Shown in pieces: positions 1,033-20,561 of a stretch of 64,000 nt of DNA. A program made the translations under genes and the position numbers. Origin of the DNA: Synechococcus sp. PROS-7-1 (GTDB lineage Bacteria; Cyanobacteriota; Cyanobacteriia; PCC-6307; Cyanobiaceae); NCBI RefSeq assembly GCF_014279795.1, contig NZ_CP047945.1:764572-828571 (forward strand). Reading direction: 5' to 3'. Below the pieces are notes generated by a model. It had not been told where the DNA came from. It searched no databases and saw nothing but the letters and a program-made list of their open reading frames with translations. Numbering within the stretch: position 1 is the first letter of the stretch; each line of letters starts with the position of its first letter.

Positions 1033-1503
1033 ATGCCGTTATTTGTGCTCGTGCTTCTCGCGTCGTTTGCAGGTGTCACCACAGTGCATGGGGGGGAAGG
1101 TTGTGAGGCCACAGCGCATTACCTAGGGAGCTTCGATCCGGATCGTCAGCAAGTGAGCCTCTGCCCTGATGTTGCGATGCAAGGGAAGCGGTCCCTAGGC
1201 GAAGTGGCCCGCCATGAGTTTTTTCATGCCATTCAGCACCGCTTCGGTTACGGGGGACAGGGATTTCTTCCTGATGCTTTGCTAACGCCACTGGTGCGCT
1301 ACGGCATGGATGATCGGGAAGTGATGACCGTGCTCAGCTTGTATTCGGAAGAGGAAGTGAATGGAGAGTTGGAAGCGCGCTTGGCATCAAGGATCATTCC
1401 CAATGCACTCATCGCAGGCGGCTTAATTACTGGTGCGGTGATCCATGACGACAATGCGAGCGGACCAATCGGCAAGATTCGGGCATTCTTGCTGCCCCGT
1501 TAG
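1033..1503 (+). CDS. Secreted HExxH-motif protein (zincin-like), function unknown
   Basis: 156 residues. A hydrophobic signal peptide (about 1-19) is followed by a Cys pair (24 and 44) and a clear H61-E62-F-F-H65 motif inside a helix, the zinc-binding signature of metallopeptidases. A second hydrophobic stretch lies near 126-136. No third zinc ligand is obvious to me. It is convergent with the GMC gene and their ends overlap by 4 bases (1500-1503). Peptidase activity is inferred from the motif only. Confidence 0.6.
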   Translation: MPLFVLVLLASFAGVTTVHGGEGCEATAHYLGSFDPDRQQVSLCPDVAMQGKRSLGEVARHEFFHAIQHRFGYGGQGFLPDALLTPLVRYGMDDREVMTVLSLYSEEEVNGELEARLASRIIPNALIAGGLITGAVIHDDNASGPIGKIRAFLLPR

Positions 1504-3020
1504 CCATCGAAGCGTTGCTTGAGGGCTGCAGCCATGCGTAGTGCTAAGGCGATGGTGGTGAGTCCAGGGCCGACGCTTGGGCAGCTCGGAAACACGCTGG
1601 AATCAGCGATGTAGAGGTTGTCGAGCTCGTGGCAACGGCCATCGCCATCGACCACCGATGCAGCGGGATCTTCGCCCATGCGGCATGTACCGCAGGCGTA
1701 GCCCACCACGCTCAGTGGCGCTTCACCGCGGGGGTGTGTTGGAGCTTTGGTCACCACCTGGGTGATGGGATCGGATTCGACGGCCGTCAAGGTGTCAATC
1801 CATCGATAGACAAGGCGATCGTGGGCTTCGCGATTGTTATGCAAGTAATTAATGCGGATCTGATCATTGTTCAACCACACTTTGTTGTGGGGGTCGGGAA
1901 GCACTTCCGTCATGGCCCACCAGGCCACGGAACGGGATGCCAGGCGCTCCAAGCCGAAATCAGGGATCAATTTGCTCACAAGAGAGAGCACCGGTGGTGA
2001 TTCGGCAAACAGCGCATCCTGCAAAACACCCCCGGCAGCTTGGATGTGACCAAGGGGGAAGCTCACATTCTTATCCCCCCAGTAGTAGTCATTCACGCCC
2101 AGTGATCGCGCATAGCGACCGTTGTTCGGTTCAGCTGCCAGCTGGAGAATCGAGGTGAGCTGAAGATTCATCAGATTGCGGCCCACCTGATCAGACCCGT
2201 TGTTGAGGCCTCGGGGGTGCTTTTCACTGCTGGAGCGCAGCAAGATCGCAGGCGTATTGATCGCTCCAGCCGCAAGCACAACTACATCCGCTGAGAACAA
2301 CCAGCTTTCACCGGCGACATCGGCTTCCACCGCTTTCACCTCGCGACCACTTGGATTCACGTGGAGTCGCATCACCCGGGCCATTGACCGCACCTCCAGC
2401 TTCTCGGGATCGGCGTTGTCCAGTCCGTACAGCTGGGAGTCCCCGCTGGGGTCTTCTTGGCTGCTCGACCAGCTCAAGGGCAGGTCATAGGGCTGACAAC
2501 CTTGACGCTTGAGACCTTCCCGCAGGGGCTCAAGAAAGGGCATCAACGGTTTTGGTGCATGGCCGAAGTCACCGCTGCGAGCAGGCTCCGTGGGGTCCAC
2601 GCCCGATTGTCCATGCACTTGATACAGACTTTCGGCCTGGTCGTAATAGGGGGCCAGGTGTTGGTAACTGAAGGGCCAGCGCGGCGAAATGCCGTCCTGA
2701 AGAGGGAGATCGTCGAAGTCCTTCTCGCGCATGCGCTCGAGAACGGCTCCCCAGATCTTGGTGTTACCCCCTAAGGCGTAGGTAGTTTGTGGGGCGATTG
2801 GGTCGCCGTCCGGTCCGAACCAACGTTCGTTGCGTGGGTGGTAACGGTCTTTGCGAAAGAGATCAACATCGGCCACGTTCTGATCACTCAGGGCCATGGC
2901 TTCCCCGCGTTCAAGCAGGAGCACACGTCGTCCTTGTCGGCTCAGAGCTCCAGCCAGGGTTCCGCCCCCGGCGCCGCTGCCGATGACGATGATGTCGTAG
3001 TGGCGATCGTCGATGATCAT
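1500..3020 (-). CDS. GMC-family FAD flavoprotein with altered active site
   Basis: 506 residues. The Rossmann FAD motif GSGAGGG lies near the N-terminus, and the C-terminal GMC domain has the GTCRMG and NLYIADSSVFP signatures. Family members oxidise alcohols or sugars and pass electrons to oxygen or quinones. Oddities: the His that normally precedes GxGTC is Tyr441, and the partner Asn/His is Gly484, so both residues of the usual catalytic pair are missing. The four-Cys region present in the homologue at 16008-17567 is also absent. It is the last gene of the oxidase operon, 39 bases after ctaE. The substrate is unknown, and a structural or non-classical redox role is possible. Confidence 0.85.
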   Translation of the reverse strand: MIIDDRHYDIIVIGSGAGGGTLAGALSRQGRRVLLLERGEAMALSDQNVADVDLFRKDRYHPRNERWFGPDGDPIAPQTTYALGGNTKIWGAVLERMREKDFDDLPLQDGISPRWPFSYQHLAPYYDQAESLYQVHGQSGVDPTEPARSGDFGHAPKPLMPFLEPLREGLKRQGCQPYDLPLSWSSSQEDPSGDSQLYGLDNADPEKLEVRSMARVMRLHVNPSGREVKAVEADVAGESWLFSADVVVLAAGAINTPAILLRSSSEKHPRGLNNGSDQVGRNLMNLQLTSILQLAAEPNNGRYARSLGVNDYYWGDKNVSFPLGHIQAAGGVLQDALFAESPPVLSLVSKLIPDFGLERLASRSVAWWAMTEVLPDPHNKVWLNNDQIRINYLHNNREAHDRLVYRWIDTLTAVESDPITQVVTKAPTHPRGEAPLSVVGYACGTCRMGEDPAASVVDGDGRCHELDNLYIADSSVFPSCPSVGPGLTTIALALRMAAALKQRFDG

Positions 3021-3059
3021 GGCGGAAGTGTCGTGTTGAAACCGGTTGATGCAGCGAAA

Positions 3060-3665
3060 TCAGTTTGTGCGCTGCCACACGTAAATCAGCACAAAAAGGA
3101 TGATCCAGATGACATCCACAAAGTGCCAGAACAGGCTCACAGCAGTGACGCCCATGTCTCCTTTTTCGTAGTTTCCCGGGCGGAAGGAGTGAAACAGCAT
3201 CAACCCCATCAGACCAATGCCAGTAATCACATGCAACCCATGGAATCCAGTTAGGAGGTAAAAAGTTCCTCCGAATACACCGCTGCCAAGTCCGAATTCC
3301 AGGCTTGACCATTCAACGTATTGTCCATAAACAAAATAAGCGCCCATCAGCATCGTGATGAACCACACGATTCGGAAGCCCCACAAGTTGCCTTTGTGGA
3401 GGTAGCGCTCGGCAAAGTAGGCCACAAAGCTCGAGCTCACCAGCACAATTGTGTTGATGAGCGGCATCCTCACTTCCAGGCCCTCTACGCCTGGAGGAAG
3501 CCATTCAGGGGACGTAATTTTAAACAGCGTAAATCCTGCAAAAAATGCCAGAAAGATGATGCTTTCGGAGCAGAGGAAAATGATAAACCCCGTAAGGTTG
3601 TGGCCGGAATGCTTGATGTGACCCGGCGTGTGATTGAGTTGTTGGGATGAATCCAAGCTGGTCAT
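3060..3665 (-). CDS. ctaE: Heme-copper oxidase subunit III
   Basis: 201 residues with five predicted membrane helices, the short form usual in cyanobacteria. The C-terminal signature WHFVDVIWI and the GFHGLHV segment are typical of subunit III. It supports the integrity of the proton-pumping oxidase. The gene lies 3 bases after ctaD and 39 bases before the GMC gene, on one transcript by spacing. Because subunit II lacks CuA, this is best called the third subunit of an ARTO-like terminal oxidase. Confidence 0.95.
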   Translation of the reverse strand: MTSLDSSQQLNHTPGHIKHSGHNLTGFIIFLCSESIIFLAFFAGFTLFKITSPEWLPPGVEGLEVRMPLINTIVLVSSSFVAYFAERYLHKGNLWGFRIVWFITMLMGAYFVYGQYVEWSSLEFGLGSGVFGGTFYLLTGFHGLHVITGIGLMGLMLFHSFRPGNYEKGDMGVTAVSLFWHFVDVIWIILFVLIYVWQRTN

Positions 3666-3668
3666 GAG

Positions 3669-5357
3669 TCAGGCCTCCTGGGCGCGTCGGATGTAAAACT
3701 CCTCGTCGGCCACAAAGGGCTCATGCAGCCCGTAGCCATAGGGGTTGTTGAGAACGGTTGGAACATCGTCCTCAAAGTTCTCTGCCGGAGGTGGTGACGG
3801 CAGAAGCCATTCCAAGCCGATGGCTCCCCATGGATTTGGGGGCGCTTTAGGACCTCGTGCCCAGGAGCTCACCATGTTCAGAATGAAGGGAATCGAGGCA
3901 ACTCCCAGAAGGAAGGCGCCGATGCTGGCGAGTACATTCCAAATGGCGAATTCAGGGTCGTAGGACGCGACCCGTCTGGGCATGCCGAGCAAGCCCGCCC
4001 AGTGGAGCGGCAACCAGTTGAGAGTGCATCCAATAAAGGTGAGGGCAAAGTGAACCTTTCCCAGACCTTCGTAATACATGTGACCAGTAAATTTCGGGAA
4101 CCAGTGATATACGGCGGCGAACACGCCTAAAACAATGGCGTTGAAGATCACATAGTGGAAGTGTGCTACCACAAAGTAAGTGTTCCCCACGTGGATATCG
4201 ATGGGTATGGTTCCAAGCATCACGCCAGTGATGCCAGCGAAAATAAAATTCAGCAGTCCGCCCAGGCAGAAGAGCATGGGAGTGGTCAGACGAAGCTTTC
4301 CTCCCCAAAGCGTGGCCACCCATGCAAAGACCTTCACCCCGGTAGGGACTGCGATGGTCATGGTGGTGAACATGAAGAGGACGCGCATCCAGTTCGGGGT
4401 ACCGGTATAGAACATGTGGTGAACCCACACGATCAGTGACAGAAACACGATTCCAAATGAGGCCAAAGCCACAAACTTGTAGCCAAACAGCGGTTTGCGC
4501 GCGTAGCAGGTGAAGACTTCAGAGAAGATGCCGAATACAGGCAGCACCATCACATACACCGCGGGGTGTGAATAGAACCAGAAGAAGTGCTGGTAAAGAA
4601 CAGGATCTCCGCCGCCTTCGGGACGGAAAAAGCTTGTTCCAAAACTCAGATCAAACAGCAACATGATGGCGCCGCCAGTAAGCGCTGGAAGACCGATCAG
4701 CTGAATCGTCTGGGCTCCCCATGCTGTCCAGCAATACAGAGGCATTTTGAAGAAGCCCATGCCTGGGGCACGCATCCTGATGATTGTGGTGACGAAATTG
4801 ATCGCTCCAAAGATGGATGACACACCAGAGAGGGCTACTGCAAGCAACCAGAGTTGTTCCCCATTCACGAAGTTGTTGAGAGGATTCTGGATGCTGATCG
4901 GTGGGTAGGACCACCAGCCAGCCTGAGCCGGTCCACCGGGGATGAAGAAGCTTCCCATCAGGAGCAAAGCGAACACTGGCACAAGCCAGAACGCTGCAGC
5001 ATTGAGCCGAGGAAAGGCCATGTCGGGAGCACCGATCATCGTGGGAATCAACAGATTGTTGAGACCATTCAGAACCGGGAAAAGAAAGAGGAACAGCATC
5101 ACTGTTCCGTGCATTGTGTAGAGACCGTTGTAGACGGTGGGGTCGACCAGATCAGCTGGTGGAGTGATCAGTTCACCCCGCATCACCATCGCCAGGAGCC
5201 CGCCAACAAGCAGGAAAAGCAACGAGGTGGCGATGTACTGAATGCCAATCACCTTGGCATCGGTGTTGAAGCTGAAAAAGCGCTTCCAGTTGTCTGGGGC
5301 ACCGGGCACGGGGTGTGGCGCCTTGAGGATGCGTGGATCGAAATTGGTGGATGTCAT
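3669..5357 (-). CDS. ctaD: Heme-copper oxidase subunit I, A2-type motif
   Basis: 562 residues with the 12-helix subunit I pattern. Visible ligands: low-spin heme His83 (in MHGTV), CuB His264 with Tyr268 for the His-Tyr crosslink, CuB His313-His314, and high- and low-spin heme His399 and His401 in VAHFHYV. The helix VI motif is YSHPAVY (262-268). The classical XGHPEV glutamate is therefore absent and replaced by the Tyr-Ser pair of A2-type oxidases. The protein reduces oxygen to water and pumps protons. It is preceded by ctaC with a 5-base gap. Confidence 0.96.
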   Translation of the reverse strand: MTSTNFDPRILKAPHPVPGAPDNWKRFFSFNTDAKVIGIQYIATSLLFLLVGGLLAMVMRGELITPPADLVDPTVYNGLYTMHGTVMLFLFLFPVLNGLNNLLIPTMIGAPDMAFPRLNAAAFWLVPVFALLLMGSFFIPGGPAQAGWWSYPPISIQNPLNNFVNGEQLWLLAVALSGVSSIFGAINFVTTIIRMRAPGMGFFKMPLYCWTAWGAQTIQLIGLPALTGGAIMLLFDLSFGTSFFRPEGGGDPVLYQHFFWFYSHPAVYVMVLPVFGIFSEVFTCYARKPLFGYKFVALASFGIVFLSLIVWVHHMFYTGTPNWMRVLFMFTTMTIAVPTGVKVFAWVATLWGGKLRLTTPMLFCLGGLLNFIFAGITGVMLGTIPIDIHVGNTYFVVAHFHYVIFNAIVLGVFAAVYHWFPKFTGHMYYEGLGKVHFALTFIGCTLNWLPLHWAGLLGMPRRVASYDPEFAIWNVLASIGAFLLGVASIPFILNMVSSWARGPKAPPNPWGAIGLEWLLPSPPPAENFEDDVPTVLNNPYGYGLHEPFVADEEFYIRRAQEA

Positions 5358-5362
5358 GAATC

Positions 5363-6298
5363 TCAGGCGTCGTGGGGGATCGAGGCGTCACCGGGGTCAT
5401 TCACCATCGGTGGTGGTGCCGGAGGGACGGTCGCCCATCCTTTATTCCCGTTGGCCAGTCGCTTGGCGTAGAGCTCATTGCCAGGGCTCAGGCCAGGTTG
5501 CAATGGCTGTTTCGCTGTTGCTGCCAGCCATTGGTTGTAGGAGTCTTCCGACTCAACAATCACGTCCGTTTGATTCTGGGAAAAGTAAGTACCACTGAAC
5601 ATGGCGTCCCTGAGCCGAAATCGCCCCTGCTTTGTGGGTGTGAGGCTGTAGGAAATCACACTGCCTGGAATGATGTCTTGCTTCAGTCGAAAGGCCGGAA
5701 CGTAAAAGCTGTGATTCACATCTTCGCTGATCAATCGGAAATTAACGCGTTGATCAACGGGCAGGTGAAGCTCGGAACTTCTTGTTCCATCGGGGTAGAC
5801 AAATTCCCAGCTCCATTGGCGTGAAATCACGTCGATCGGCCCAACTGTTGCTCGTGGATCCACTTCGGCAACGGCAATGGGGTCACTGCCGATGGCGTAC
5901 TTGTGCTTAGGGCCAAGTGCATCGAGCTTGTCATTCACCTGCATGGAATAGATCGCAATCGCGAAGACGATCACGGTGGGAATGATCGTCCAGGTGATTT
6001 CGAGTCGGTTGTTGCCTTCAATCGGTTCGCCGTAACTCTCGTCGTACTTGGCTGCCCGATTGAATAGAAGCGTCCAGGCGATCACAGCGGTGAGGCCGAA
6101 CCAAAGAAAGGAGCCAATGGCCGTTTCCAGGGCAAAGAGGTCATCCACATAAGGCGCGGCACTGGAGGCCTGGGGTGGGAACCAGCTGTAGGACCACTGG
6201 GCCATCTGGGCTGCAAGAGCCGTGTTGAGGGCAACCCCAATGGAAATGATCACGATGGCCTTGATGTTTGGCCCTTTCCGATCCGTCGATGTGGTCAT
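5363..6298 (-). CDS. ctaC: Oxidase subunit II without CuA site (ARTO-like)
   Basis: 311 residues with N-terminal membrane helices (about 12-31, 60-80 and 102-120) and a C-terminal cupredoxin domain. The first CuA His is kept (H196 in NHSFYVPAFRLKQD). In the loop where aa3-type enzymes carry CxExC...H..M, the aligned residues are D231, M233, S235, F239 and N242, so five of six CuA ligand positions are lost. Cyanobacterial ARTO enzymes share this loss and are considered quinol oxidases. The start ATG overlaps the stop of the upstream DUF2231 gene by 4 bases. Confidence 0.93.
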   Translation of the reverse strand: MTTSTDRKGPNIKAIVIISIGVALNTALAAQMAQWSYSWFPPQASSAAPYVDDLFALETAIGSFLWFGLTAVIAWTLLFNRAAKYDESYGEPIEGNNRLEITWTIIPTVIVFAIAIYSMQVNDKLDALGPKHKYAIGSDPIAVAEVDPRATVGPIDVISRQWSWEFVYPDGTRSSELHLPVDQRVNFRLISEDVNHSFYVPAFRLKQDIIPGSVISYSLTPTKQGRFRLRDAMFSGTYFSQNQTDVIVESEDSYNQWLAATAKQPLQPGLSPGNELYAKRLANGNKGWATVPPAPPPMVNDPGDASIPHDA

Positions 6299-6930
6299 GG
6301 GAGCACCTCCTTGAGATCAGCGCCTGCGGCAAGCAATTGGTCCGCTGTGATGTGCACGCCAAATTCGCTTGCGAGCCATGCACCGAGGCTTCCGTGCACA
6401 CCCATCACAACCAGGATGAAAGCTCCGCTTGCCAGATAGAGCCAGGTCACCTGACGGCCGAGATCTTTTCTCCACACGAAGCGCTGGTAACCACGCCAGA
6501 CCGTCATGGCCACGATGATCAAGAGCAGAGCGACTCCGCCAATGGCATGCCAGAGCATGGTGTCGATGGCGTTCTGGCCAATCACACTGCGGATTCCGGG
6601 CAGTGGAACCGCCAGGAGCATTTCGTAGAAGCCTGCGGCCACCGTGAAAAAGGTGATCACACTGCAAGCCAATACGTTGTACCAGCCCACATCATGGAAT
6701 CCCGTGCGGGTGACGGGCAGGGCCAGAAAGCGGAAGATCCTTTTTTCGAGGGGATAGAAAGCACCTGCGAAATCAAAGGCGATGCCAATGGCAAACAACC
6801 CAATCGTGAAGTGCACAAGATTGGGGTGAATGGGAATGGCGTAAGGAAGATCGTTCGCTCCGAGTTGGTCAACGATGTCGTTGATCGGTGAGGGGATGGC
6901 AATCAACGATTGGATGGTGGCGATGCTCAT
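6295..6930 (-). CDS. DUF2231 membrane protein, oxidase-operon member 2
   Basis: 211 residues from the ATG at 6930, which overlaps the stop of the previous gene (ATGA) and is preferred over an upstream in-frame extension. There are four or five membrane helices with conserved-looking histidines: IHPNLVHF, a later WHAIGG, and VHGSLG near the C-terminus. The IHPxxVHF motif is shared with the neighbour gene. DUF2231 has no assigned function that I know. The paired histidines at helix ends would suit heme b or quinone binding, which is inference. Position just before ctaC suggests a role in electron delivery or assembly of the oxidase. Confidence 0.8.
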   Translation of the reverse strand: MSIATIQSLIAIPSPINDIVDQLGANDLPYAIPIHPNLVHFTIGLFAIGIAFDFAGAFYPLEKRIFRFLALPVTRTGFHDVGWYNVLACSVITFFTVAAGFYEMLLAVPLPGIRSVIGQNAIDTMLWHAIGGVALLLIIVAMTVWRGYQRFVWRKDLGRQVTWLYLASGAFILVVMGVHGSLGAWLASEFGVHITADQLLAAGADLKEVLP

Positions 6931-7433
6931 GAAACGGCTCCGCTGCGAATCGCTTCCACCACGGGCACGGTGTGAAGCCCGTAGACCCAAACGAGCTTGT
7001 CGCCTAGATACACCTGGCAGAACACCAGCGTGGCCAGCACGCCATCAATGACGAGGAATCCCGAGGGCAGTGCTGTTGGGTCTTTCTGTCTCACCACATA
7101 GCGCCATCCTGTGAGCAGCCCAAGGACGCCCGCCAGCGACCAGCCGATGGTGCTGTGGTAATTGAGAATGTCTCTGGAGGCCCCGTAAGGCATCGCCAGG
7201 CCGGCTTCAATTTGGCCGAAAATGATGGCTACAAAAATGGCCACGGTGGCCACCACAAGGTTCCAGAAACTCACCTCGAAGAGGTTTCGGCGACGTGTCA
7301 CGACACCCAAAACGTCGAACACGACAGTGATCAACGCCATCGCGATCACGAAGTGAACAACGATTGGGTGGATGACATCCAGCCAGGGAAGATTTTTATC
7401 GTTGAGAGATGGGAGCAACTCGAGCATCGGCAA
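6927..7433 (-). CDS. DUF2231 membrane protein, first gene of oxidase operon
   Basis: 168 residues with four predicted membrane helices. It shares the IHPIVVHF motif with its downstream neighbour, plus NYHSTIG and YGLH, so the two genes look like an old duplication. As the first gene of the leftward DUF2231-DUF2231-ctaC-ctaD-ctaE-GMC unit it should follow the promoter in 7434-7541. Function unknown. Redox-cofactor or quinone handling is inferred from histidine placement and context. Confidence 0.8.
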   Translation of the reverse strand: MPMLELLPSLNDKNLPWLDVIHPIVVHFVIAMALITVVFDVLGVVTRRRNLFEVSFWNLVVATVAIFVAIIFGQIEAGLAMPYGASRDILNYHSTIGWSLAGVLGLLTGWRYVVRQKDPTALPSGFLVIDGVLATLVFCQVYLGDKLVWVYGLHTVPVVEAIRSGAVS

Positions 7434-7450
7434 GCGGAGCGACGCTCTTT

Positions 7451-7484
7451 AAGGATGGACAGCATTTCGACAGCAGTCATCCTT
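7451..7484. promoter_or_regulatory. Inverted repeat upstream of the oxidase operon
   Basis: AAGGATG and its complement CATCCTT are separated by 20 bases and lie 18-51 bases upstream of the first DUF2231 ATG (7433). This could be an operator or a leader hairpin. Seven-base arms can occur by chance, so support is weak. Confidence 0.25.
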
Positions 7485-7541
7485 TCGTGAACGAATGCAC
7501 CGATCGGTGTGGGGATGCCGACGCAACCGTTGTGTTGCCGA

Positions 7542-8660
7542 TTACCTCGAAGGCAAATCGCGTTGTTTTTGATTGCGTTTGAGCTGTCGCCAATACAACC
7601 CAGCTTGAACGCTGATCACGACAATGACGGCAGGCAGGACCAGGCAGAGCATCACAATTCGGAATTCGTCCTGCCAGGTGGGCAAGGTGCGTGGGAGCAC
7701 TTGGTCGACCACATAGAAGACGTACAGCGCCACCAGAATCCCCCCTTCCAGACGGGTGATCCGACCTCGGGTCCAGAAAATCGGAAGGCAGGCCAGGGCG
7801 GCCAACACCATCACCGGCAGATCCCGCTGAATCAACAGTGGGCTCACCTGCAGCCCGGTTCCACCGGCGGCAGCCACGGCACTGGCTCCCAGCACCAGCA
7901 GCTGATTGAGCAGATTGCTTCCCACCACATTGCCGATCGCCAGATCTGTTCTTCCCTTTACGGCTGCGACCAGTGAGGTGATGAGCTCGGGCATGGAGGT
8001 GCCTGCCGACACGATGGTCAGCCCGATTACGGCCTGACTCACTCCCAAAAAGGTGGCCGCCGCACTGGCTCCATGCACCAGAACGCGTGATCCAACGCCA
8101 AGGAGGATGATCCCGATCAGCAGCAGCCCCAGGGCACGGGCGACACCCCGTTTGCCCTGATCCGGATTCACTTCGGGTTCGGCTTCACCCACACCTTCGG
8201 GTTCTTCCCGTGCCGTGCGGATTTCCCAGACCGAATTAATCACTAACGCTAGAAGCAGCGCAAGCCCCGCCTGCCAGGTCACTCGTCCTGCCGAGGCCAT
8301 TCCCCAAACGGCAGCCGAGACGGCAATCAGGAGGGGGACATCCCTTCGCACAAGTCGGCTCTCTACCCGAAGGGGCATCACCAAGGCACTACTGCCCAGC
8401 ACCACCATCACATTGAAAATGTTGCTTCCCACAACGTTGCTCACGGCAAGGGCATCAAATCCCTGTGTCACCGAGCTCAAGCTCACGAACAATTCCGGAG
8501 CACTGGTGCCCAATGACACGACCGTGAGTCCAATCACCAGCTGGGGAATGCCGAAGATCAGCGACAGGGTCACCGCACCCTGCACAAAGAACTCACCACC
8601 GCCGAACAGCAGGGCGATTCCGATCAGAACTTCCAGAAATGCTGACAGAAACGGAGGCAT
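7542..8660 (-). CDS. CaCA-family calcium (or Na+/K+) : cation antiporter
   Basis: 372 residues and about ten membrane helices in two homologous halves separated by an acidic cytoplasmic loop (about 150-175). The alpha-1 repeat (about 50-82) has GTSAPELFVSL and GSNIFN. The alpha-2 repeat (about 219-250) has GTSMPELITSL and GSNLLN. These Glu-bearing repeats bind the transported ions. The family (YrbG/CaxA-like) exchanges Ca2+ for Na+ or H+; the ion is not settled by sequence. It is divergent from bicA, a Na+-dependent transporter, so a shared link to sodium is possible. Confidence 0.9.
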   Translation of the reverse strand: MPPFLSAFLEVLIGIALLFGGGEFFVQGAVTLSLIFGIPQLVIGLTVVSLGTSAPELFVSLSSVTQGFDALAVSNVVGSNIFNVMVVLGSSALVMPLRVESRLVRRDVPLLIAVSAAVWGMASAGRVTWQAGLALLLALVINSVWEIRTAREEPEGVGEAEPEVNPDQGKRGVARALGLLLIGIILLGVGSRVLVHGASAAATFLGVSQAVIGLTIVSAGTSMPELITSLVAAVKGRTDLAIGNVVGSNLLNQLLVLGASAVAAAGGTGLQVSPLLIQRDLPVMVLAALACLPIFWTRGRITRLEGGILVALYVFYVVDQVLPRTLPTWQDEFRIVMLCLVLPAVIVVISVQAGLYWRQLKRNQKQRDLPSR

Positions 8661-11580: not shown

Positions 11581-12042
11581 ATGGGCGATCCCCAAATCCA
11601 GACTCCCGCTGCAGAACAGTATTGGCATCTGTGGACGGACGCCGAGGGCATGAGTCGTCATCAGCTCTGCACGATCAGTGAGTTCAAGCTCGGCCGCCTC
11701 GGGCCGCGAAACTCACCGCAGTTCTCCCGCGATCTGATCAAGGACGGTAATGCATTCGTGACGTATCTGCCCGTGGGTTGGACAGCCGATTGGCATGAAA
11801 ACCCTGAGCCCAAATGGATCTACATCTTGCGCGGAGCTTGGGCTGTTACGAGCATGGATGGTCAGCGGGTTGTCATGAAAGCTGGTGAATACTCCTATGG
11901 GGGAGATCAGGGCTGCGTGATGACATCCGATGGTCGTTTCGGCCATCTGTCCGAACAGGTTGGCGATGAACCGTGCGTGCAGCTGGTGATCCAGCGCAAT
12001 GACAATGCCTGGCGCAATCTTCCCCCAGGTTCATTCAGCTGA
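11581..12042 (+). CDS. Cupin-fold protein of unknown substrate
   Basis: 153 residues. The centre (about 55-115) has the two cupin-like motifs in the form GWTADWHENPEPKWIYILRG and GEYSYGGDQG, typical of small single-domain cupins that act as isomerases, dioxygenases or sugar binders. It starts 31 bases after pyrC and is followed after 17 bases by an SMP-30 lactonase gene, so it may belong to a sugar-acid gene set. No specific function can be assigned. Confidence 0.75.
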   Translation: MGDPQIQTPAAEQYWHLWTDAEGMSRHQLCTISEFKLGRLGPRNSPQFSRDLIKDGNAFVTYLPVGWTADWHENPEPKWIYILRGAWAVTSMDGQRVVMKAGEYSYGGDQGCVMTSDGRFGHLSEQVGDEPCVQLVIQRNDNAWRNLPPGSFS

Positions 12043-12059
12043 AACAAGCGATCGCAGCG

Positions 12060-13007
12060 ATGAACATTTACCGAAGCGATTTCGTTGAAACAAGGCTTGA
12101 GGCGCTGGATCCTCGATTCAGTTCTCTGGTCTTGTTCAATGCCCAGTTGGAACGTCTGTTTGATGGTTGCCGATGGCTTGAAGGTCCTGTGTGGCTTGGT
12201 GATCAGCAGCGCCTTTTGGTTTCCGATATCCCCAACGACCGAATTCTTGCTTGGGATGAGGTGCATGGATTGAGCGTGTTCCGCCACAGTGCAGGATTCC
12301 CGAATGGTCAGACGCGGGATCGTCAAGGACGTTTGCTGACATGCAGCCACCGCGATCGTGCCGTGTTGCGAACCGAGCACAACGGCAAAGTGACGTCGTT
12401 GGTGGACTCCCATCAGGGAAAGTCTCTCAATACACCCAATGATGTGGTGGTGAAACGGGACGGCACCATCTGGTTTAGTGATCCGGTGTATGGGCTTGTC
12501 AATGATTACGAGGGCGGTCGGCGGTCTTCGTTGCAAGCTCCTGTGGTTTACCGCTTTGACCCAGCGGATGGCTCATTGCAAGCCATGACCACCCCAGATG
12601 AAGTGTCTGGTCCGAATGGTCTGGCCTTTTCGCCGGATGAGTCCCTGTTGTACGTCGTCGATACCGGAGCCCCGGACGATCCCGTTGCCGATCGACTGAT
12701 TCACGTGTTTGATGTTGTTGAGGGTGGCCGGCAACTCGAAGGACGACGGGATTTCCACCGGGTGAATAACGGCAATGCCGATGGCATTCGTGTGGATGAG
12801 GTCGGCAATGTCTGGAGCAGCGCAGGCAATGGTGTGCACTGCATCGCTCCCGACGGAACTCTGCTGGGGCGCATTGCCACGCCGCGCCTCGTCAGCAATC
12901 TCTGTTTTGGCGGTGTTCATGGCAACCGACTGTTTCTGTGCAGTTGGGACACCGTGTATTCCATCCACGTCAACACCAGGGGCCTTCAGCACCCAGCCCT
13001 GCCCTGA
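12060..13007 (+). CDS. SMP-30/gluconolactonase family protein
   Basis: 315 residues forming the six-bladed propeller typical of SMP-30, gluconolactonase and luciferin-regenerating proteins. Likely metal ligands are present: Glu in WLEGPVW, Asn in NTPNDVV, Asn in SGPNGLAF and Asp in NADGIRVDE. Relatives hydrolyse sugar lactones such as gluconolactone. Sugar-oxidising enzymes (SDR and GMC) are encoded nearby, so a lactone-opening step after sugar oxidation is a reasonable inference. Confidence 0.88.
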   Translation: MNIYRSDFVETRLEALDPRFSSLVLFNAQLERLFDGCRWLEGPVWLGDQQRLLVSDIPNDRILAWDEVHGLSVFRHSAGFPNGQTRDRQGRLLTCSHRDRAVLRTEHNGKVTSLVDSHQGKSLNTPNDVVVKRDGTIWFSDPVYGLVNDYEGGRRSSLQAPVVYRFDPADGSLQAMTTPDEVSGPNGLAFSPDESLLYVVDTGAPDDPVADRLIHVFDVVEGGRQLEGRRDFHRVNNGNADGIRVDEVGNVWSSAGNGVHCIAPDGTLLGRIATPRLVSNLCFGGVHGNRLFLCSWDTVYSIHVNTRGLQHPALP

Positions 13008-13024
13008 CCCATTTCTGAACTCCA

Positions 13025-13285
13025 ATGACCAGTAATCCTCAACTTGAAGCGTTTCTCAGCAAGGTGAAAGGTGATTCCGACCTGCTGAAACAGTTCCACT
13101 CCGCCGCATGCCTTAATGACATCGCTGCCATGGGGGCTGGGATGGGCTTTCAATTCACAGGCGTCGACATTCTTTTGCATCAGGCCTCAGCCACGCTGAA
13201 GCTCTCTGCGGATGCCTTAGAGGCCCTGGCTGCAGGTGTGGAATTGGAAGGGCATCTCTGGAAGATGGCCATTCAGTGGACCTGA
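13025..13285 (+). CDS. Nif11-like protein
   Basis: 86 residues with the Nif11 pattern: an N-terminal amphipathic helix with FLSKVKGDSDLLKQF, an AxxxGF-type turn (MGAGMGFQF) and a following helix. The end LSADALEALAAG resembles the cleavage region of Nif11-type leader peptides. The remaining 14 or so residues contain no Cys, Ser or other obvious core, so it is not a lanthipeptide precursor by sequence. It sits between the SMP-30 and HbpS genes on the same strand. Confidence 0.85.
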   Translation: MTSNPQLEAFLSKVKGDSDLLKQFHSAACLNDIAAMGAGMGFQFTGVDILLHQASATLKLSADALEALAAGVELEGHLWKMAIQWT

Positions 13286-13289
13286 ATCC

Positions 13290-13730
13290 ATGCAGATGAT
13301 TCCTTGCCTGGACCTCGCTGATGCCGAGGCGATTGTCTCCTCCGCGCTCCAGGCGGCTGAACGCTCTGCGTCGCAGGTGTCGATTGCAGTGGTGGATGGG
13401 GCTGGACTGCTGATCCGTTTCAGTCGGATCGATGGCGCATCAGCGGCAAGCGTTGAAGCGGCCACAGCCAAAGCGCGGACGGCCGCTTTGACAGGAAACG
13501 ACAGCGCCGCTGCCGAGCAGGCCATCGCATCCGGGCGTCTGGCCTTGCTCTCGCTGCAGGGGGTTCTCCACCAGCCTTGCGCTCTGATGGCTGGTGGTCT
13601 TGTGCTGCGCTCCCAGGGAGTTGTGGTGGGGGCGATCGGCGTGTCTGGGATGACTCCTGATCAGGACACTGCGATCGCCCGAGCTGGCGCCGACTGTTTT
13701 GAGCTCAGAGCCCAGGGCTGCTCATCATGA
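13290..13730 (+). CDS. HbpS/GlcG (DUF336) family heme-binding-like protein
   Basis: About 146 residues from the ATG at 13290, chosen because it begins 5 bases after the Nif11 stop and fits the family N-terminus. The body matches GlcG/HbpS: SIAVVDGAGLLIRFSRIDGA, followed by ATAKARTAA and a closing GAIGVSG segment. Members bind heme or cobalamin or accompany glycolate and dehydrogenase systems. Its 3' end overlaps the convergent SDR gene by 26 bases (13705-13730). Confidence 0.85.
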   Translation: MQMIPCLDLADAEAIVSSALQAAERSASQVSIAVVDGAGLLIRFSRIDGASAASVEAATAKARTAALTGNDSAAAEQAIASGRLALLSLQGVLHQPCALMAGGLVLRSQGVVVGAIGVSGMTPDQDTAIARAGADCFELRAQGCSS

Positions 13731-14505
13731 TGCCGCCGTCAGCAAACACGCTGGTAGCGGTCATGTAGCTGGCTCCATTGCTGGCGAGAAATGCCACCAC
13801 GGAGGCGATTTCTTCGGGCTGAGCCATGCGCCCCATGGGGATCGCTGCATTGAGCTTGGCCAAAAGCTCAGGATTGTTGATCGTGGAGTCGTTGATTGGC
13901 GTCGCCACGGCTCCGGGACCCACATTCACAATCGAGACTCCTTTGCTAGCCAGTTCCACACCGGCGGTGCGGGTGAGCATGCGCACACCGCCCTTGGCCA
14001 CGCAGTAGGGCGTGTTGTCCGGCATCGGCCAGTCTTCATGAACCGATGAGATGTTGATGATCCTGCCGCCGCTGCCTTGAGCGATCATCTGTTTGGCTGC
14101 GAACTGCGTGGCGAAGAACACGCCACGGAGATTCACATTCATCACTTTGTCGTAGTCCTCGGGAGTGGTGTTGAGGATCGAGGTACGGGTTTCGATTCCT
14201 GCGTTGTTCACCATGACGTCGACCTTTCCGAACGTCTTCACTGCAGTGTCAATCAGCCGTTGAAGATCATCCAGCTTGGCCACGTCGGCCTGAACACCAA
14301 TGGCTTGGCCGCCCAGTTCGCCGATTTCTTCGATCAGCTCTTCGGTGCGTTCGGGATGGGAGCGGTAATCGATCACCACTTTCGCGCCCAGGCCGCCAAC
14401 CGCTTCAACGATCGACTTGCCGATTCCGGAATTGCCGCCGGTGACAATGATCACTTTGTCGCGAAGACAAAGTGATGTCATGGCCTTGGGGACCTGGTTG
14501 GTCAT
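13705..14505 (-). CDS. SDR oxidoreductase, glucose 1-dehydrogenase-like
   Basis: 266 residues of the classical short-chain dehydrogenase fold. The cofactor motif TGGNSGIGKS lies near 22-31, NNAGIE follows strand 4, and the catalytic Ser with YCVAK forms the active site. The closing DGGIMM resembles glucose 1-dehydrogenases and 3-oxoacyl reductases. An internal Met at residue 9 is an alternative start. Substrate undetermined. Sugar oxidation is suggested by overall similarity and by neighbours (SMP-30 lactonase, GMC enzyme). Confidence 0.9.
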   Translation of the reverse strand: MTNQVPKAMTSLCLRDKVIIVTGGNSGIGKSIVEAVGGLGAKVVIDYRSHPERTEELIEEIGELGGQAIGVQADVAKLDDLQRLIDTAVKTFGKVDVMVNNAGIETRTSILNTTPEDYDKVMNVNLRGVFFATQFAAKQMIAQGSGGRIINISSVHEDWPMPDNTPYCVAKGGVRMLTRTAGVELASKGVSIVNVGPGAVATPINDSTINNPELLAKLNAAIPMGRMAQPEEIASVVAFLASNGASYMTATSVFADGGIMMSSPGL

Positions 14506-14614
14506 GGGAATTGGTGAAAGACTCTCATTGGATAGCCGGTTTTTGTCGGGCTTGCTGTGTTGTGTTGCGTCCTCCAGAACGCGCTAAGACGCCTTTAAAG
14601 CGTTTTGTCTGGCC

Positions 14615-15454
14615 ATGACTGACTCCCTTCGACCCTCGCCCGCGGTGGAGGGAGTGGCGTTCTCTCTGCCAGAACCGCATGCTCTTGATCCACTGTTCAG
14701 CGCCCTCGGCGTCACTGCCCACGGCAGCACGATGCTCGATGGCGCAGCGCTCCGGCGTCGTTTCGGCCTCAATGAAGGACGAGCGACAGTGCATCACCAT
14801 CGCCTCGGCTCGGAACGTCTTGACACCATCACGTTTGAGGACTGTCCTCCCGCAACGTCTTTACAACCGGGCCCTGCCAACACCTTGTGGTTTCAGCACG
14901 TGGCGATCGTGGTGAGTGACATGAACCGTGCGGCTGCCTGTTTGATGCCGATGGTGACACCCATTTCCGATTCCCCCCAGTGGCTCCCCAACGGAGTAGC
15001 GGCATGGAAGTTCAGGAACGCGGCCGGCCATGCCATGGAACTGCTGTGGTTTCCCTCCGAACTGGGCCACCCCCGTTGGCATCAGTCCAATCCTCCGCTC
15101 TTTCAAGGGCTTGATCACACAGCGATCGCCATCAGTGACAGCGACCGCAGCCTTGCTTTCTACGGCTGTGATCTCAGGCTCCAGTTGCGTTACGCCACGC
15201 TCAATCAGGGGCTTGAACAGGAGCGCTTGGATGGCCTGAAAGATGCTCGGGTTGCGATTCACGGCGTGAGTGGCTCCAGTCCCTGTGGGGTGGAGTTCCT
15301 TCGTTATCTGCACCCGGCCCCTTGCGAACCAACAGCAGCGTCTCTGCAGCCTCAGGATGCGTTGTACGCGCAAATCCTTGTGCGCGATCCGGATGCTGGG
15401 CACGGCCGATTGCTGAGTGATCCTGATGGGCATCGACTCTGGATCGAGTCTTAA
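14615..15454 (+). CDS. VOC-superfamily (glyoxalase/dioxygenase-like) protein
   Basis: 279 residues with two VOC-type modules: one around 90-165 beginning FQHVAIVVSDMNRAA, and one around 168-279 beginning LDHTAIAISDSDRSLAFY and ending DPDGHRLWIES. Superfamily members bind a metal and act as glyoxalases, isomerases or ring-cleaving dioxygenases. The first 85 residues are less typical. It is divergent from the SDR gene. A specific substrate cannot be inferred. Confidence 0.8.
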   Translation: MTDSLRPSPAVEGVAFSLPEPHALDPLFSALGVTAHGSTMLDGAALRRRFGLNEGRATVHHHRLGSERLDTITFEDCPPATSLQPGPANTLWFQHVAIVVSDMNRAAACLMPMVTPISDSPQWLPNGVAAWKFRNAAGHAMELLWFPSELGHPRWHQSNPPLFQGLDHTAIAISDSDRSLAFYGCDLRLQLRYATLNQGLEQERLDGLKDARVAIHGVSGSSPCGVEFLRYLHPAPCEPTAASLQPQDALYAQILVRDPDAGHGRLLSDPDGHRLWIES

Positions 15455-16007: not shown

Positions 16008-17567
16008 TCAGCCCAACCGCTCCTTGAGGTGATCGGCGACGCGGATCGCATTAGCAATCGCGGTGAGTGAAGGATTCACTGCCGAACTGCTGGGAAAGAA
16101 GCTTGTATCCACCACATAAAGATTGTCCACATCATGGGTGCGGCAGTTGAGGTCTAGTACCGATGTGGCGGGATCGGTGCCGAAGCGGCAGGTCCCCATC
16201 TGGTGACCGACAGCTGCAATATCCATGGAGGAGGCGAAGTACACCTGACGCTCAGCCAGGTGATTTTGCAGATAAAGCTTGTCGAGAAGGCCTTCCAGTC
16301 TGTTTATCAGCTCCTGGGATGCCCGGTCGTTGGTCATGGTGTAGCTCAGCTTGATCTGGCCGTTGGCATTCACGGTGACCCGGTTGTCGGGGCGTGGCAG
16401 GTCTTCGGTTTGCAACCAGAAATCAAGCGAATGCTCAGCGATGCGATCCATGCTCCAGGTGGGAGCGAGAGCCGTTAAACGAGGCTTGTAGCCCTTGATC
16501 ATGGCTCCGTTCGTCTTGCCGGTCATCTGCACATTGCCCATCGGGTAATCGAAGGCGTTGTCGCCGAAATACCAGTCGTTCACTGCGACGGTCTTCTGGA
16601 AGATTGTTGTGTTTGGCTCATGGGCAAGGGCCACCACGGCCTTGCAGTTGTGGAACATGTAATTCCTTCCCACCTGATCGGAGCTGTTCGCCAGTCCCTT
16701 GGGATGGGCATCATTGGCCGACATCAGCAACAGTCGGGCAGAGTTCGCTGCCCCAGCTGAAATCACCACAATGTCTCCCCGGAAGCGGCGCTCTTCACCA
16801 CGGTGATTCACAACGACTTCGGTGATCTCACGACCGCTGGCGTCAGTCTTGAGCTTGCAGACTTCCGCTTCGGTCAGCATAAAAACGTTGTCGTGATCCA
16901 GGGCTGGACGTACACCCATCACCTCGGCATCGCCTTTGGCGTGCACGAGACAGGGGAAACCGTCGCAGCGATTGCAGCGCACACAGGCGCTGAAGGCTGG
17001 ATCCAGCTCATTCATGGCCACGCCGGTTGGTGCATGGAACGGATGAAGACCGGCGGAGCGCAGATCAGTCACCAGTTTCTGCATCCGAGGTTCGTGGCTG
17101 ATCGGTGCGTAGGGGTAAGGCGATGACGCCGGTGGCTCGGTGGGGTCCTCTCCTCGTTCGCCATGCACGTGATACCACTCTTCGGCTTTGCGGTAGTAAG
17201 GCTCGAAGACGTCGTATTTGAGGGGCCACTCCGGTGACTCGCCGTCGACGTGAATCACCGATTCAAAATCCCTTTCCCGAAGGCGGAAGTGGGCTGCTCC
17301 ATACATCTTTGAAGCACCACCGACGAAGTAATGACTTCCGGGTTGAAATTCCTTTCCGTTCTTGTCGAGCCAGGGATCGGTTGAGACGTAGCGATCCTTC
17401 TGAAAGACTTCCACTGGGTCCCAGTTCTGAGGTTCTCGCGGCAGCCAGCCACCTCGCTCCAGGATCAGAATCGAATGCCCTGAATCGGCCAGGGCCCGTG
17501 CCAGAGAACCGCCGCCTGCACCGCTGCCGATGATCACCACATTGAAGTGATCGCCTTTGGGCTCCAT
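16008..17567 (-). CDS. GMC oxidoreductase with four-Cys cluster motif
   Basis: 519 residues from the ATG at 17567, which places the FAD motif GSGAGGG at the same distance as in the 1500-3020 homologue. Upstream in-frame starts at 17606 and 17615 are possible. Unlike that homologue it keeps the GMC catalytic pair, His455 in GHQMGTC and Asn498 in AVNPSL. It also has C195-x2-C198-x2-C201-x4-C206, which could hold an iron-sulfur cluster. Likely reaction: FAD-dependent oxidation of a sugar or alcohol. It forms a convergent pair with a DoxX gene, a possible quinone-linked partner. Confidence 0.88.
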   Translation of the reverse strand: MEPKGDHFNVVIIGSGAGGGSLARALADSGHSILILERGGWLPREPQNWDPVEVFQKDRYVSTDPWLDKNGKEFQPGSHYFVGGASKMYGAAHFRLRERDFESVIHVDGESPEWPLKYDVFEPYYRKAEEWYHVHGERGEDPTEPPASSPYPYAPISHEPRMQKLVTDLRSAGLHPFHAPTGVAMNELDPAFSACVRCNRCDGFPCLVHAKGDAEVMGVRPALDHDNVFMLTEAEVCKLKTDASGREITEVVVNHRGEERRFRGDIVVISAGAANSARLLLMSANDAHPKGLANSSDQVGRNYMFHNCKAVVALAHEPNTTIFQKTVAVNDWYFGDNAFDYPMGNVQMTGKTNGAMIKGYKPRLTALAPTWSMDRIAEHSLDFWLQTEDLPRPDNRVTVNANGQIKLSYTMTNDRASQELINRLEGLLDKLYLQNHLAERQVYFASSMDIAAVGHQMGTCRFGTDPATSVLDLNCRTHDVDNLYVVDTSFFPSSSAVNPSLTAIANAIRVADHLKERLG

Positions 17568-17623
17568 CGGCGTCTGACGCTGCGCGGAGCAGGTAGCAAA
17601 GTCCATCAGTGGCACTTAAAGCA

Positions 17624-17640
17624 CTACCTAAACGGTAGGT
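17624..17640. promoter_or_regulatory. Inverted repeat upstream of second GMC gene
   Basis: The sequence ACTACCTAAACGGTAGGTA (17623-17641) holds two nested inverted repeats, CTACC/GGTAG and ACCTA/TAGGT, 57-73 bases upstream of the preferred GMC start. The size and AT/GC layout resemble operators of TetR-family repressors. No regulator gene is adjacent. Confidence 0.35.
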
Positions 17641-17694
17641 AAGGCTTTCGGTGACGTCAGGAGATGCGTGTTGAGCCGAACCGACTGGAGGGGG

Positions 17695-20391
17695 TTAAGG
17701 CTGCCAACGATTCAACTGCGTGATCATTTTGGCAACAATGGCGCTCCACCCTGTCTGATGACTGGCTCCGACGCCCGCGCCGCTGCAGCCATGAAAATAT
17801 TCATTGAATAGGAAGAGATCACGCCACAGAGGGTCCTGCTGAAACTGTTCAACGGGACCATTGAAGGCCCGTCGTCCGTCGGCGTCGCGGCGGAAGATGC
17901 CGATCAGTCGTTGTTCTAACTCCAGAGAAATCTGCCAGAGATTTAATTCCCGGCCGGACCCTGTCGGGAATTCCATTTTGAAATCGTCGCCAAAGAAATG
18001 ACCGAATTTCTGGAGCGCTTCGATCAGAAGGTAGTTGATCGGCATCCAGATGGGGCCACGCCAGTTGGAGTTGCCTCCGAACATGGCGACAGGGCTGTCT
18101 GCTGGGCTGTAGCTGATCGTGGCGTAGTCGTCTCCCTGCTGGTAGGAGTAAGGATTTTTGTCGTAGATCTTCGAGAGGCTGCGAATGCCGTAAGGAGACA
18201 GGAACTCCTGCTCATCGAACACTCTGGTGAGAATCCGACGCAAGCGATCGGGAGGCACGATCGAAAACAAAACCCGGTCCCGGTGCCATGTGCCGAGGTG
18301 CGTGATCGCATCAAAGGGGACCCCGCGCTCTTTCCCCAGTTCATTGAGGTAGCTGCGAACATCCAGGGCTGGAATTGAATCCACTGTCTGGGCATCAAAG
18401 GTGGCGATGGCTAGCAGTGGAATCAGCCCGCTCAGAGAGCGGGTGCGCAGGTAATCGGAGCTCCCGTCCGGCCGTTTCAGCACGTCGTAATAAAAACCAT
18501 CCGCTTCATCCCAATTCACGAATCCACGCCCTGAGGGACTGTTCAGGGCATAGGTCAGCCGACTGAAGTCGCTGACAAAGCGCTCGCATAAGCCTTTGTA
18601 TTCCTCGCGATCACTCGCAAGCAGAACGCAGGCCTCCAGCATGTTGAGACTGAGCATTCCCATCCAGGCTGTGCCATCGGATTGCTCGATCCGACTGCCG
18701 TCTCTCAGGGGGTAGCGGCGATCGAAGATGGCGATGTTGTCGAGTCCGAGGAAGCCGCCTTCGAACAGGCTGTCGCCGTTGCGATCCGTGCGGTTGGCCC
18801 ACCAGCCGTATTCGAGCAGAAGTTCCCGCAGGCTGGCGCGAAGGAAGGGATAGTCCTTTTGCCCATGGCTGCGCTGGGAGATCTGGAAAATGCGCAGGCT
18901 GGCCCAGGCTCCGATCGGTGGATTGGCATCGGACAAGGCCCATTCATAGGCGGGTGATTGCCCGTTGTTGGCTGTCAGGCTCGCCTGTCGCAGCATGCGG
19001 GCCTGACGTTTCGCTTCACCGGGGTCGAGTTCTGCAAAAGCTACGGCGTGAACCATCAGATCCCACTGGCAGAAATAGGGATATTCCCAGCAGTCGGGCA
19101 TCGAAATGATGTTGCGTGCACGCAGGGTCTTCCAGTAGGCGTTCTCTGTGTGCCAACGCTGCTCAGGAGGACGCGGAGCATTGCTGTCGCCGCGCAACCA
19201 TCGGGCGACATACCAGTTGTAAAACTTGCGACACCAGAACAGTCCGGCTGCGGCCGCGGCGTGGATCGCCCGATCTTCCGTACCAAGGCCGGGTGCCACC
19301 CACTGCAAGTGATCCTCCCAGTCCTGTCGGCGCTGGCGAATGACGGCGTCCACTTGACTGGACTCCATCGGGTCTGGAGCCTTCGCTCCGTGATGGTCAT
19401 GCCGGCAGAGGCGCAGATTCACCTGCCAGACCTCGCCTGGTTCGAGACGGCGTTGGAGATGAAGCGCCGCTTTGCTTCCCTCGCCGCTTGGGTTCACTGC
19501 GTCTGTTTGTGCTTCGATCAGATATCGGTGAAAAGCATCCTTCACATAAGGCTGGTGAAGCGGTTGGTTGTAGAGGCGCTCGGTGTTGGTTTCATTCTCC
19601 GTGAACAGCCAGTTGCCCTGCTCGCTGCAGCTGAGGTTGTAAGACGCCAACCCTTTCAATGCATCACTCACTACGGCATCGCCTGCAACACGAAGTCGTG
19701 GCCGCGCACTGTCTTCATCACCCCAGTCCCAGGTGTTGCGGAACCAGAGACTGGGAAGCAGATGAAGATCCGCGGCTTCTGATCCCTGGTTGGTCACCGT
19801 GAGGCGGATCAGCAGATCCTCCGGAGAGACCTTCGCGTATTCGACTTCCAGATCGAAGAAGCGGTTTTCAGAGAAAATTCCGGTGTCGACCAACTCGAAT
19901 TCAGGCTCATCCCGGCTGCGGCGTCGGTTCTCATCCCGCAGCCGTTCGTAGGGAAAGCGTTCCTGCGGATAGCGGTACAGGGCCTTGGCGTAGCTGCAGG
20001 TCGGTGTGCCCGCCTGGTGGTACATCGTGTCTTTGAGGTCTTCCCCGTGATTGCCTTCAGGGTTGCCCAGACCGAACAAGCGTTCCTTGAGCACAGGATC
20101 TTTCCCGTTCCAAAGCACGGGAGCGAAGCAAAGCAGACCGTTTTCATCGCTCAGTCCGAGAAGTCCATCTTCACCCCAGCGATAAGTTCGTAAGTGGCTG
20201 TGATCGAAGGGAAAAGAGTTCCAGGCATTGCCATCGTCCGAATAATCCTCACGGACCGTTCCCCACTGGCGGTCGCTGAGATAGGTCCCCCAGAGGTCCC
20301 ATGGCTTCAGTCCCGCATCCCTTTCCCGGGATCGAACCAACTCCATCGGCTCTTCGCCCAATTGAGCGGTAGAGATTGGGGACGTAGTCAT
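17695..20391 (-). CDS. GH63-like glucosidase, (alpha/alpha)6 barrel
   Basis: 898 residues from the ATG at 20391; an upstream frame would run through the tRNA gene and is rejected. An N-terminal beta-rich region is followed by a C-terminal (alpha/alpha)6 barrel. Candidate catalytic residues are Asp in QWDLMVHAVAFAELDPGEA (general acid) and the acidic residue near NWRGPIWMPINYLLIEAL. Family members cleave alpha-glucosidic bonds in oligosaccharides or in glucosylglycerate/mannosylglycerate. Marine Synechococcus make glucosyl solutes, so an intracellular glucoside substrate is plausible; no signal peptide is visible. Confidence 0.85.
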   Translation of the reverse strand: MTTSPISTAQLGEEPMELVRSRERDAGLKPWDLWGTYLSDRQWGTVREDYSDDGNAWNSFPFDHSHLRTYRWGEDGLLGLSDENGLLCFAPVLWNGKDPVLKERLFGLGNPEGNHGEDLKDTMYHQAGTPTCSYAKALYRYPQERFPYERLRDENRRRSRDEPEFELVDTGIFSENRFFDLEVEYAKVSPEDLLIRLTVTNQGSEAADLHLLPSLWFRNTWDWGDEDSARPRLRVAGDAVVSDALKGLASYNLSCSEQGNWLFTENETNTERLYNQPLHQPYVKDAFHRYLIEAQTDAVNPSGEGSKAALHLQRRLEPGEVWQVNLRLCRHDHHGAKAPDPMESSQVDAVIRQRRQDWEDHLQWVAPGLGTEDRAIHAAAAAGLFWCRKFYNWYVARWLRGDSNAPRPPEQRWHTENAYWKTLRARNIISMPDCWEYPYFCQWDLMVHAVAFAELDPGEAKRQARMLRQASLTANNGQSPAYEWALSDANPPIGAWASLRIFQISQRSHGQKDYPFLRASLRELLLEYGWWANRTDRNGDSLFEGGFLGLDNIAIFDRRYPLRDGSRIEQSDGTAWMGMLSLNMLEACVLLASDREEYKGLCERFVSDFSRLTYALNSPSGRGFVNWDEADGFYYDVLKRPDGSSDYLRTRSLSGLIPLLAIATFDAQTVDSIPALDVRSYLNELGKERGVPFDAITHLGTWHRDRVLFSIVPPDRLRRILTRVFDEQEFLSPYGIRSLSKIYDKNPYSYQQGDDYATISYSPADSPVAMFGGNSNWRGPIWMPINYLLIEALQKFGHFFGDDFKMEFPTGSGRELNLWQISLELEQRLIGIFRRDADGRRAFNGPVEQFQQDPLWRDLFLFNEYFHGCSGAGVGASHQTGWSAIVAKMITQLNRWQP

Positions 20392-20475
20392 GCGCCGATC
20401 TGATTCCTTGCCCCAGAACGTAGAGAGGGATTCACAGACTGCCCATAGAAGGGTCCGCTCAACAGGAAGGTCGGA

Positions 20476-20561
20476 TGGGGGCGGGGGGACTTGAACCCCC
20501 ACAAGCTTTTCAGCTCAAACGATTTTAAGTCGCGTGCGTCTACCGATTCCGCCACGCCCCC
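20476..20561 (-). tRNA. trnL-UAA: tRNA-Leu (anticodon UAA)
   Basis: 86 bases. The acceptor stem GGGGGCG pairs with CGCCCCC (20477-20483), the discriminator is A at 20476, the T arm has loop TTCAAGT between GGGGG and CCCCC, and a long variable arm marks a class II tRNA. The anticodon loop CTTAAAA gives UAA. CCA is not encoded. There is no intron, unlike the tRNA-Leu(UAA) genes of many other cyanobacteria. Confidence 0.96.

Follow-up and report, generated by a model that had tools for sequence, protein, structure and literature searches.

The ARTO Operon and Its Sixth Gene

Within the window, by which is meant the whole 64,000-nucleotide stretch of Synechococcus sp. PROS-7-1 DNA analysed here, six genes follow one another on one strand in the order DUF2231b, DUF2231a, ctaC, ctaD, ctaE and A, and each gene either overlaps the next or stands 3 to 39 bp from it. 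In that order they are:

6927..7433, minus strand: DUF2231b, membrane protein, first gene of the operon, four invariant His (Pfam DUF2231; four-helix model)
6295..6990, minus strand: DUF2231a, membrane protein, second gene of the operon, invariant His (Pfam DUF2231)
5363..6298, minus strand: ctaC, ARTO subunit II, without CuA ligands (motif inspection)
3669..5357, minus strand: ctaD, ARTO subunit I (Pfam COX1, 505 bits)
3060..3665, minus strand: ctaE, ARTO subunit III, 39 bp before A (Pfam COX3; spacing)
1500..3020, minus strand: A, a GMC-fold FAD protein of 506 amino acids that lacks both the catalytic His/Asn pair and the cysteine loop for Fe-S (Pfam, AlphaFold2, Foldseek)

The oxidase upstream of A is classed as ARTO type, a CuA-less haem-copper oxidase, because its ctaC lacks the CuA ligands. 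The CuA motif is present in 0 of 77 ctaC open reading frames from the first set of sampled loci, while the other ctaC of this genome carries it as CAELCGPYH. Subunit II of the Anabaena ARTO/Qox operon is likewise without CuA, and the Anabaena order alr2729-alr2730-coxB3A3C3 (PMC6616624) matches DUF2231b-DUF2231a-ctaC-ctaD-ctaE over five genes if alr2729 and alr2730, to judge by their position, are the DUF2231 pair. Oxidases of this group have been reviewed as three-subunit enzymes for which it is unclear whether more subunits exist (PMC6616624). The subunit make-up and the role of ARTO are thus unsettled, and A is a concrete candidate for a missing subunit. A promoter scan of 1200-7700 gave no sigma-70-like site and was uninformative.

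That A is part of an oxidase operon, as an earlier note on this DNA had it, holds well beyond this strain. In every sampled family and phylum locus where both genes were seen, A lies behind ctaE on the same strand (76/76), with a spacing above 300 bp in six cases and of 2.7 kb at the most; the genes that consistently accompany A are ctaCDE and the two DUF2231 genes. Among the cyanobacteria with this arrangement are Synechococcus, Cyanobium, many others and one with a streamlined genome of 1.7 Mb. Within the family, ARTO ctaC and A occur in exactly the same 25 sampled genomes, and both are missing from at least 33 more; the streamlined genome is one of the 25, and its many congeners have neither gene. 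ARTO operons that lack A do exist, in the sampled Nostocales and a few others, and A is therefore not a universal requirement of ARTO. Conversely, no ARTO genes lie within 6 kb of the gene for an A-type protein of Richelia (L201:6001-7491), which has His441/Ser484 and no cysteine loop.

A second ARTO group (L131, L133, L134, L135 and L157) has no GMC gene in the operon. These same loci carry a GMC gene of the His/Asn, Fe-S type and a gluconolactonase-like gene within a few kb.

Identity and Fold of Protein A

The reading frame of A is closed, from ATG to stop. Both GMC (glucose-methanol-choline) Pfam domains score above their curated cut-offs, GMC_oxred_C with 71.1 bits (cut-off 24.6) and GMC_oxred_N with 33.0 bits (cut-off 23), and the two marks of the superfamily, the GxGxxG motif and the three-dimensional fold, are both present. 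The AlphaFold2 model is confident (pLDDT 91.6, pTM 0.93), and the protein is predicted to fold as the catalytic subunits of fructose and glucose dehydrogenases do. The best PDB matches of the model in Foldseek are 9jqa and 8jej, the large subunit of the Gluconobacter japonicus fructose dehydrogenase (FDH), which like A is a respiration-linked, FAD-binding GMC fold (TM 0.81 over the whole chain). By sequence, the best PDB match (6.4e-25) is the alpha subunit of the Burkholderia cepacia FAD-dependent glucose dehydrogenase (BcGDH; PDB 6A2U, 8GRJ), with a TM score of 0.78-0.79. FDH is one of the complexes that combine an Fe-S cysteine region with a small hitchhiker subunit and a multihaem cytochrome c subunit, and no such subunits are encoded in the operon of A. 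Probably A is peripheral and sits on the cytoplasmic face, since neither an export signal nor a membrane span was seen in it (19-residue hydropathy maximum 1.66).

A respiratory GMC flavoprotein of another kind is MftG, the mycofactocin dehydrogenase, which is coupled to the respiratory chain (PMC11778925) and keeps its active-site His. Assignment of A to this family was rejected, as its score of 80.4 bits falls far short of the NCBIfam cut-off for TIGR03970, which is 387.

Loss of the Catalytic Pair

The sites of interest within A, and the paralogue B that served for comparison, are:

2964..2981, minus strand: GxGxxG of the FAD-binding Rossmann fold, residues 14-19 (alignment)
2439..2465, minus strand: residues 186-194, the site where relatives hold the Fe-S cysteine loop, absent in A (alignment)
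1698..1700, minus strand: Tyr441, codon TAC, at the catalytic His position (alignment)
1683..1694, minus strand: CxxC, Cys443-Gly-Thr-Cys446 (complete in 89/102 A orthologues)
1569..1571, minus strand: Gly484, codon GGC, at the catalytic Asn position (alignment)
16008..17615, minus strand: B, a paralogous GMC dehydrogenase at a separate locus, with His471/Asn514 and four cysteines (alignment)

Canonical GMC enzymes hold a catalytic His/Asn or His/His pair; A has Tyr441/Gly484. Tyr441 occupies the site of the catalytic His in HxxGTC, and alignment with B pairs Tyr441 with His471 and Gly484 with Asn514. The 43 residues from 441 to 484 equal the spacing of His476 and Asn519 in BcGDH (PMC6719666), the pair that stands where A has Tyr and Gly. 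The earlier note had stated that both catalytic residues of A are replaced and that its homologue in the window retains His and Asn, and both statements are confirmed.

Orthologues were drawn from about 120 family genomes, 386 phylum genomes and a named species collection, and the combined set holds 102 A orthologues from many cyanobacterial families; 113 close relatives outside the A clade, from cyanobacteria and many other phyla, served as the comparison set. Position 441 in the orthologues is Tyr in 39, Asn in 21, His in 13, Phe in 9, Gly in 6, Ser in 5, Leu in 5 and Val in 2, so that His is lost in 89/102 and retained alone in 13/102. Position 484 is Gly in 63, Ser in 33, Pro in 3 and Thr in 2, and Asn in 0/102. 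Every one of the 113 relatives has the His, and 110 the full pair; of the other three, two are distant HS proteins and one is a truncated entry. The contrast between the two sets exceeds what chance would give. Many of the A orthologues are closely related, and these residue counts are not counts of independent events; an 80-row tree places at least 11 changes at position 441 and five at position 484. Later-added rows were assigned to A partly by their absence of Asn484 and of the cysteine loop, and the first 75 rows, assigned by best BLAST match alone, have the same residue pattern.

With 11 changes on the tree and eight residues, position 441 behaves like a site freed from constraint and not like a new catalytic position. 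It is the absence of the pair that is conserved, and not any specific identity of its replacements. A new conserved Tyr/Gly couple was accordingly rejected, as 441 varies freely among orthologues. The case by which the earlier note would have been overturned, namely ctaE-adjacent orthologues with both His and Asn that would indicate decay in one strain only, was sought among the 102 and did not turn up (0/102). Such decay, or an alignment or sequencing artefact, has nothing in its favour and is refuted by the shared losses and intact frames of 102 orthologues and by a dN/dS of 0.04-0.14; its probability is practically nil.

Another alternative is an enzyme whose flavin chemistry has been altered, acting for example through a Cys443-Cys446 dithiol/disulfide or, like fatty acid photodecarboxylase with its GMC fold, without a base. 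In its favour, the FAD site is retained, the CxxC is complete in 89/102 A proteins against 40/113 relatives, and many residues are invariant and specific to A, among them E340, W367, E398, H400 and R402. Set against this, 441 drifts through its eight residues with no new invariant catalytic group, and the CxxC is broken in 13/102 and already present in His/Asn relatives, which makes it a weak candidate for an essential new redox centre. Different chemistry, one of three roles offered in the earlier note, is therefore possible but improbable.

Loss of the Fe-S Cysteine Loop

A second loss accompanies that of the pair. In BcGDH a 3Fe-4S cluster, bound by a cysteine-rich loop (Cys212/218/222) at 12-13 A from the flavin, relays electrons to the cytochrome subunit (PMC6719666). 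This loop, by which enzymes of the FDH/BcGDH type are recognised, is missing from A: the four-cysteine motif occurs in 0/76 A orthologues, while at least three cysteines stand at the loop in 109/113 relatives. Paralogue B retains the corresponding loop (Cys211, 214, 217, 222) and by homology would carry an Fe-S cluster on it. The FAD of BcGDH is probably linked to His105 (PMC6719666), a position that aligns with Ile in A. Cyanobacterial GMC proteins of the B type have both the His/Asn pair and the cysteine loop, unlike A, and their genes are usually accompanied by those for a glycoside hydrolase, an SDR and a lactonase, while A lies directly behind ctaE.

It is very improbable, in light of both losses, that A still works as a canonical alcohol or sugar dehydrogenase, with some other residue standing in for the pair and an electron exit that needs no Fe-S. 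The fold is the same and a subset keeps His with Ser484, but Asn is gone from all orthologues and His from most, the loop is lost, and no constant substitute stands at 441.

Probable Order of the Losses

Five ARTO-linked proteins (L202, L203, L206, L207 and L209) retain the four cysteines and have Ser484 with His or Asn441. In a GMC tree built with the trait columns left out, all ARTO-linked GMC proteins form one clade (100/99) with these five Asn-less, Fe-S-retaining intermediates at its base, and the cysteine-less A proteins form a nested clade (100/100). A itself nests inside the B-like cyanobacterial GMC proteins, its nearest relatives by tree. The topology, with a root and direction of change that are inferred, points to a probable single recruitment to ARTO followed by loss of Asn, of the Fe-S loop and of His in turn. 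A tree of ctaD places the operons with A or an intermediate and the GMC-less Nostocales operons in one clade (96), in which the Nostocales nest beside the intermediates; this is consistent with a later loss of the GMC gene from the Nostocales operons.

The FAD Site and the Role of A

The cofactor site did not follow the same course. G14, G16, G19, G39, G84, G85, D473 and T488 are invariant wherever aligned among the A orthologues and E37 is nearly so, which upholds the earlier description of the FAD motif as intact and suggests that A is occupied by FAD. Close pairs give dN/dS values of 0.04-0.14, a range like that of ctaC, ctaD and ctaE in the same operons, as expected of a gene under strong purifying selection. 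The A series is a clean natural example of an enzyme from which the catalytic pair and next the predicted Fe-S relay disappeared, with the cofactor site kept under strong selection.

The reading favoured here, to which we give an even chance, is that ARTO has in A an accessory subunit which binds FAD but is not catalytic, with a part in assembly, stability or sensing. A sugar or alcohol dehydrogenase of the fructose/glucose-dehydrogenase type, with FAD and an Fe-S cluster, would have been recruited into the ARTO operon and then disarmed stepwise, of its Asn, its cysteine loop and its His. What remained would be an FAD-binding scaffold on the cytoplasmic face that aids the assembly, stability or regulation of ARTO, and its flavin might sense the redox state of the quinone pool rather than oxidise a substrate. 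The sequences themselves show the losses and their likely order, the retained FAD site, the purifying selection and the operon linkage. We infer the physical contact with ARTO, the location and the assembly or regulatory role, and the link to ARTO comes from gene linkage and co-occurrence; the operons without A and the Richelia protein without nearby ARTO genes speak against it. So does the perfectly kept FAD site, usually a sign of redox use, as a pure scaffold could drift.

That same invariant site is the first argument for a redox-active A, an electron-entry subunit whose FAD would pass electrons from a reductant or a protein to plastoquinone, the DUF2231 proteins or ARTO, with no need of His/Asn or Fe-S. 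Among 78 aligned sequences, invariant histidines occur at H55, H60, H148, H199 and H213 of DUF2231a and at H22, H27, H93 and H154 of DUF2231b, and suggest haem or quinone sites; they lie in predicted membrane helices as those of a b-type cytochrome might, and a route from flavin to b-haem is conceivable. Nothing on these histidines was found in the open-access papers searched, and a Foldseek search with DUF2231b found no significant match, so that kinship to a solved cytochrome is unsupported and electron entry is the weaker for it. In the five intermediates the Fe-S loop outlived Asn, and early ARTO-linked forms would therefore have had a relay without canonical substrate chemistry. Loss of ARTO lowers ferric reduction in Synechocystis (PMC7676907, PMC10119275), and a GMC protein does feed respiration in the case of MftG (PMC11778925), although MftG still has its His. 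The electron exit of the nearest solved relatives, the 3Fe-4S cluster, is gone from A, and a Pfam search revealed neither an NAD(P)H domain nor a motif for any other new cofactor. Electron entry comes second among the readings, possible but on balance doubtful, and the earlier suggestion of an electron carrier is weakened by the loss of the loop, while an assembly factor or accessory subunit, also among the roles offered there, fits best; as a whole, that interpretation is partly supported.

Published work connects ARTO with the reduction of ferric iron and with low-iron Prochlorococcus populations (PMC10119275, PMC7676907). A bolder and rather unlikely extension would make ARTO a larger complex, in which two His-rich DUF2231 membrane proteins join a disarmed GMC protein that serves as FAD electron-entry or redox-sensing module, possibly tied to ferric iron reduction. 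A flavoprotein partner of ARTO has probably been overlooked, one that has lost the usual means of oxidising alcohols. No paper linking ARTO to a GMC protein was found in the open-access literature searched; we call A a GMC fold that, from its sequence, lacks GMC catalysis and is attached to a known oxidase.

Paralogue B and Its Neighbourhood

Paralogue B adjoins an MGH1/GH63-like glycoside hydrolase gene (window 16008-20502, minus strand). In roughly half of the family loci that have A, the two are immediate neighbours of A and ARTO; they lie about 11 kb away in the window, where the interval between the ARTO operon and B (11581-15454) encodes cupin, SMP-30/gluconolactonase-like, SDR and VOC-like proteins; together with B and the glycoside hydrolase these look like a sugar-oxidation module. 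B as an obligate partner of A was rejected, as in several genera and in the small genome G399 A occurs but B, sought at E 1e-30, does not. GMC genes of the B type also occur on viral contigs: no A-type protein was found among the viral GMC proteins classified, only B-like His/Asn relatives, and three viral contigs (L261, L262 and L263; 117-159 kb) carry B-like His/Asn genes complete with the cysteine loop.
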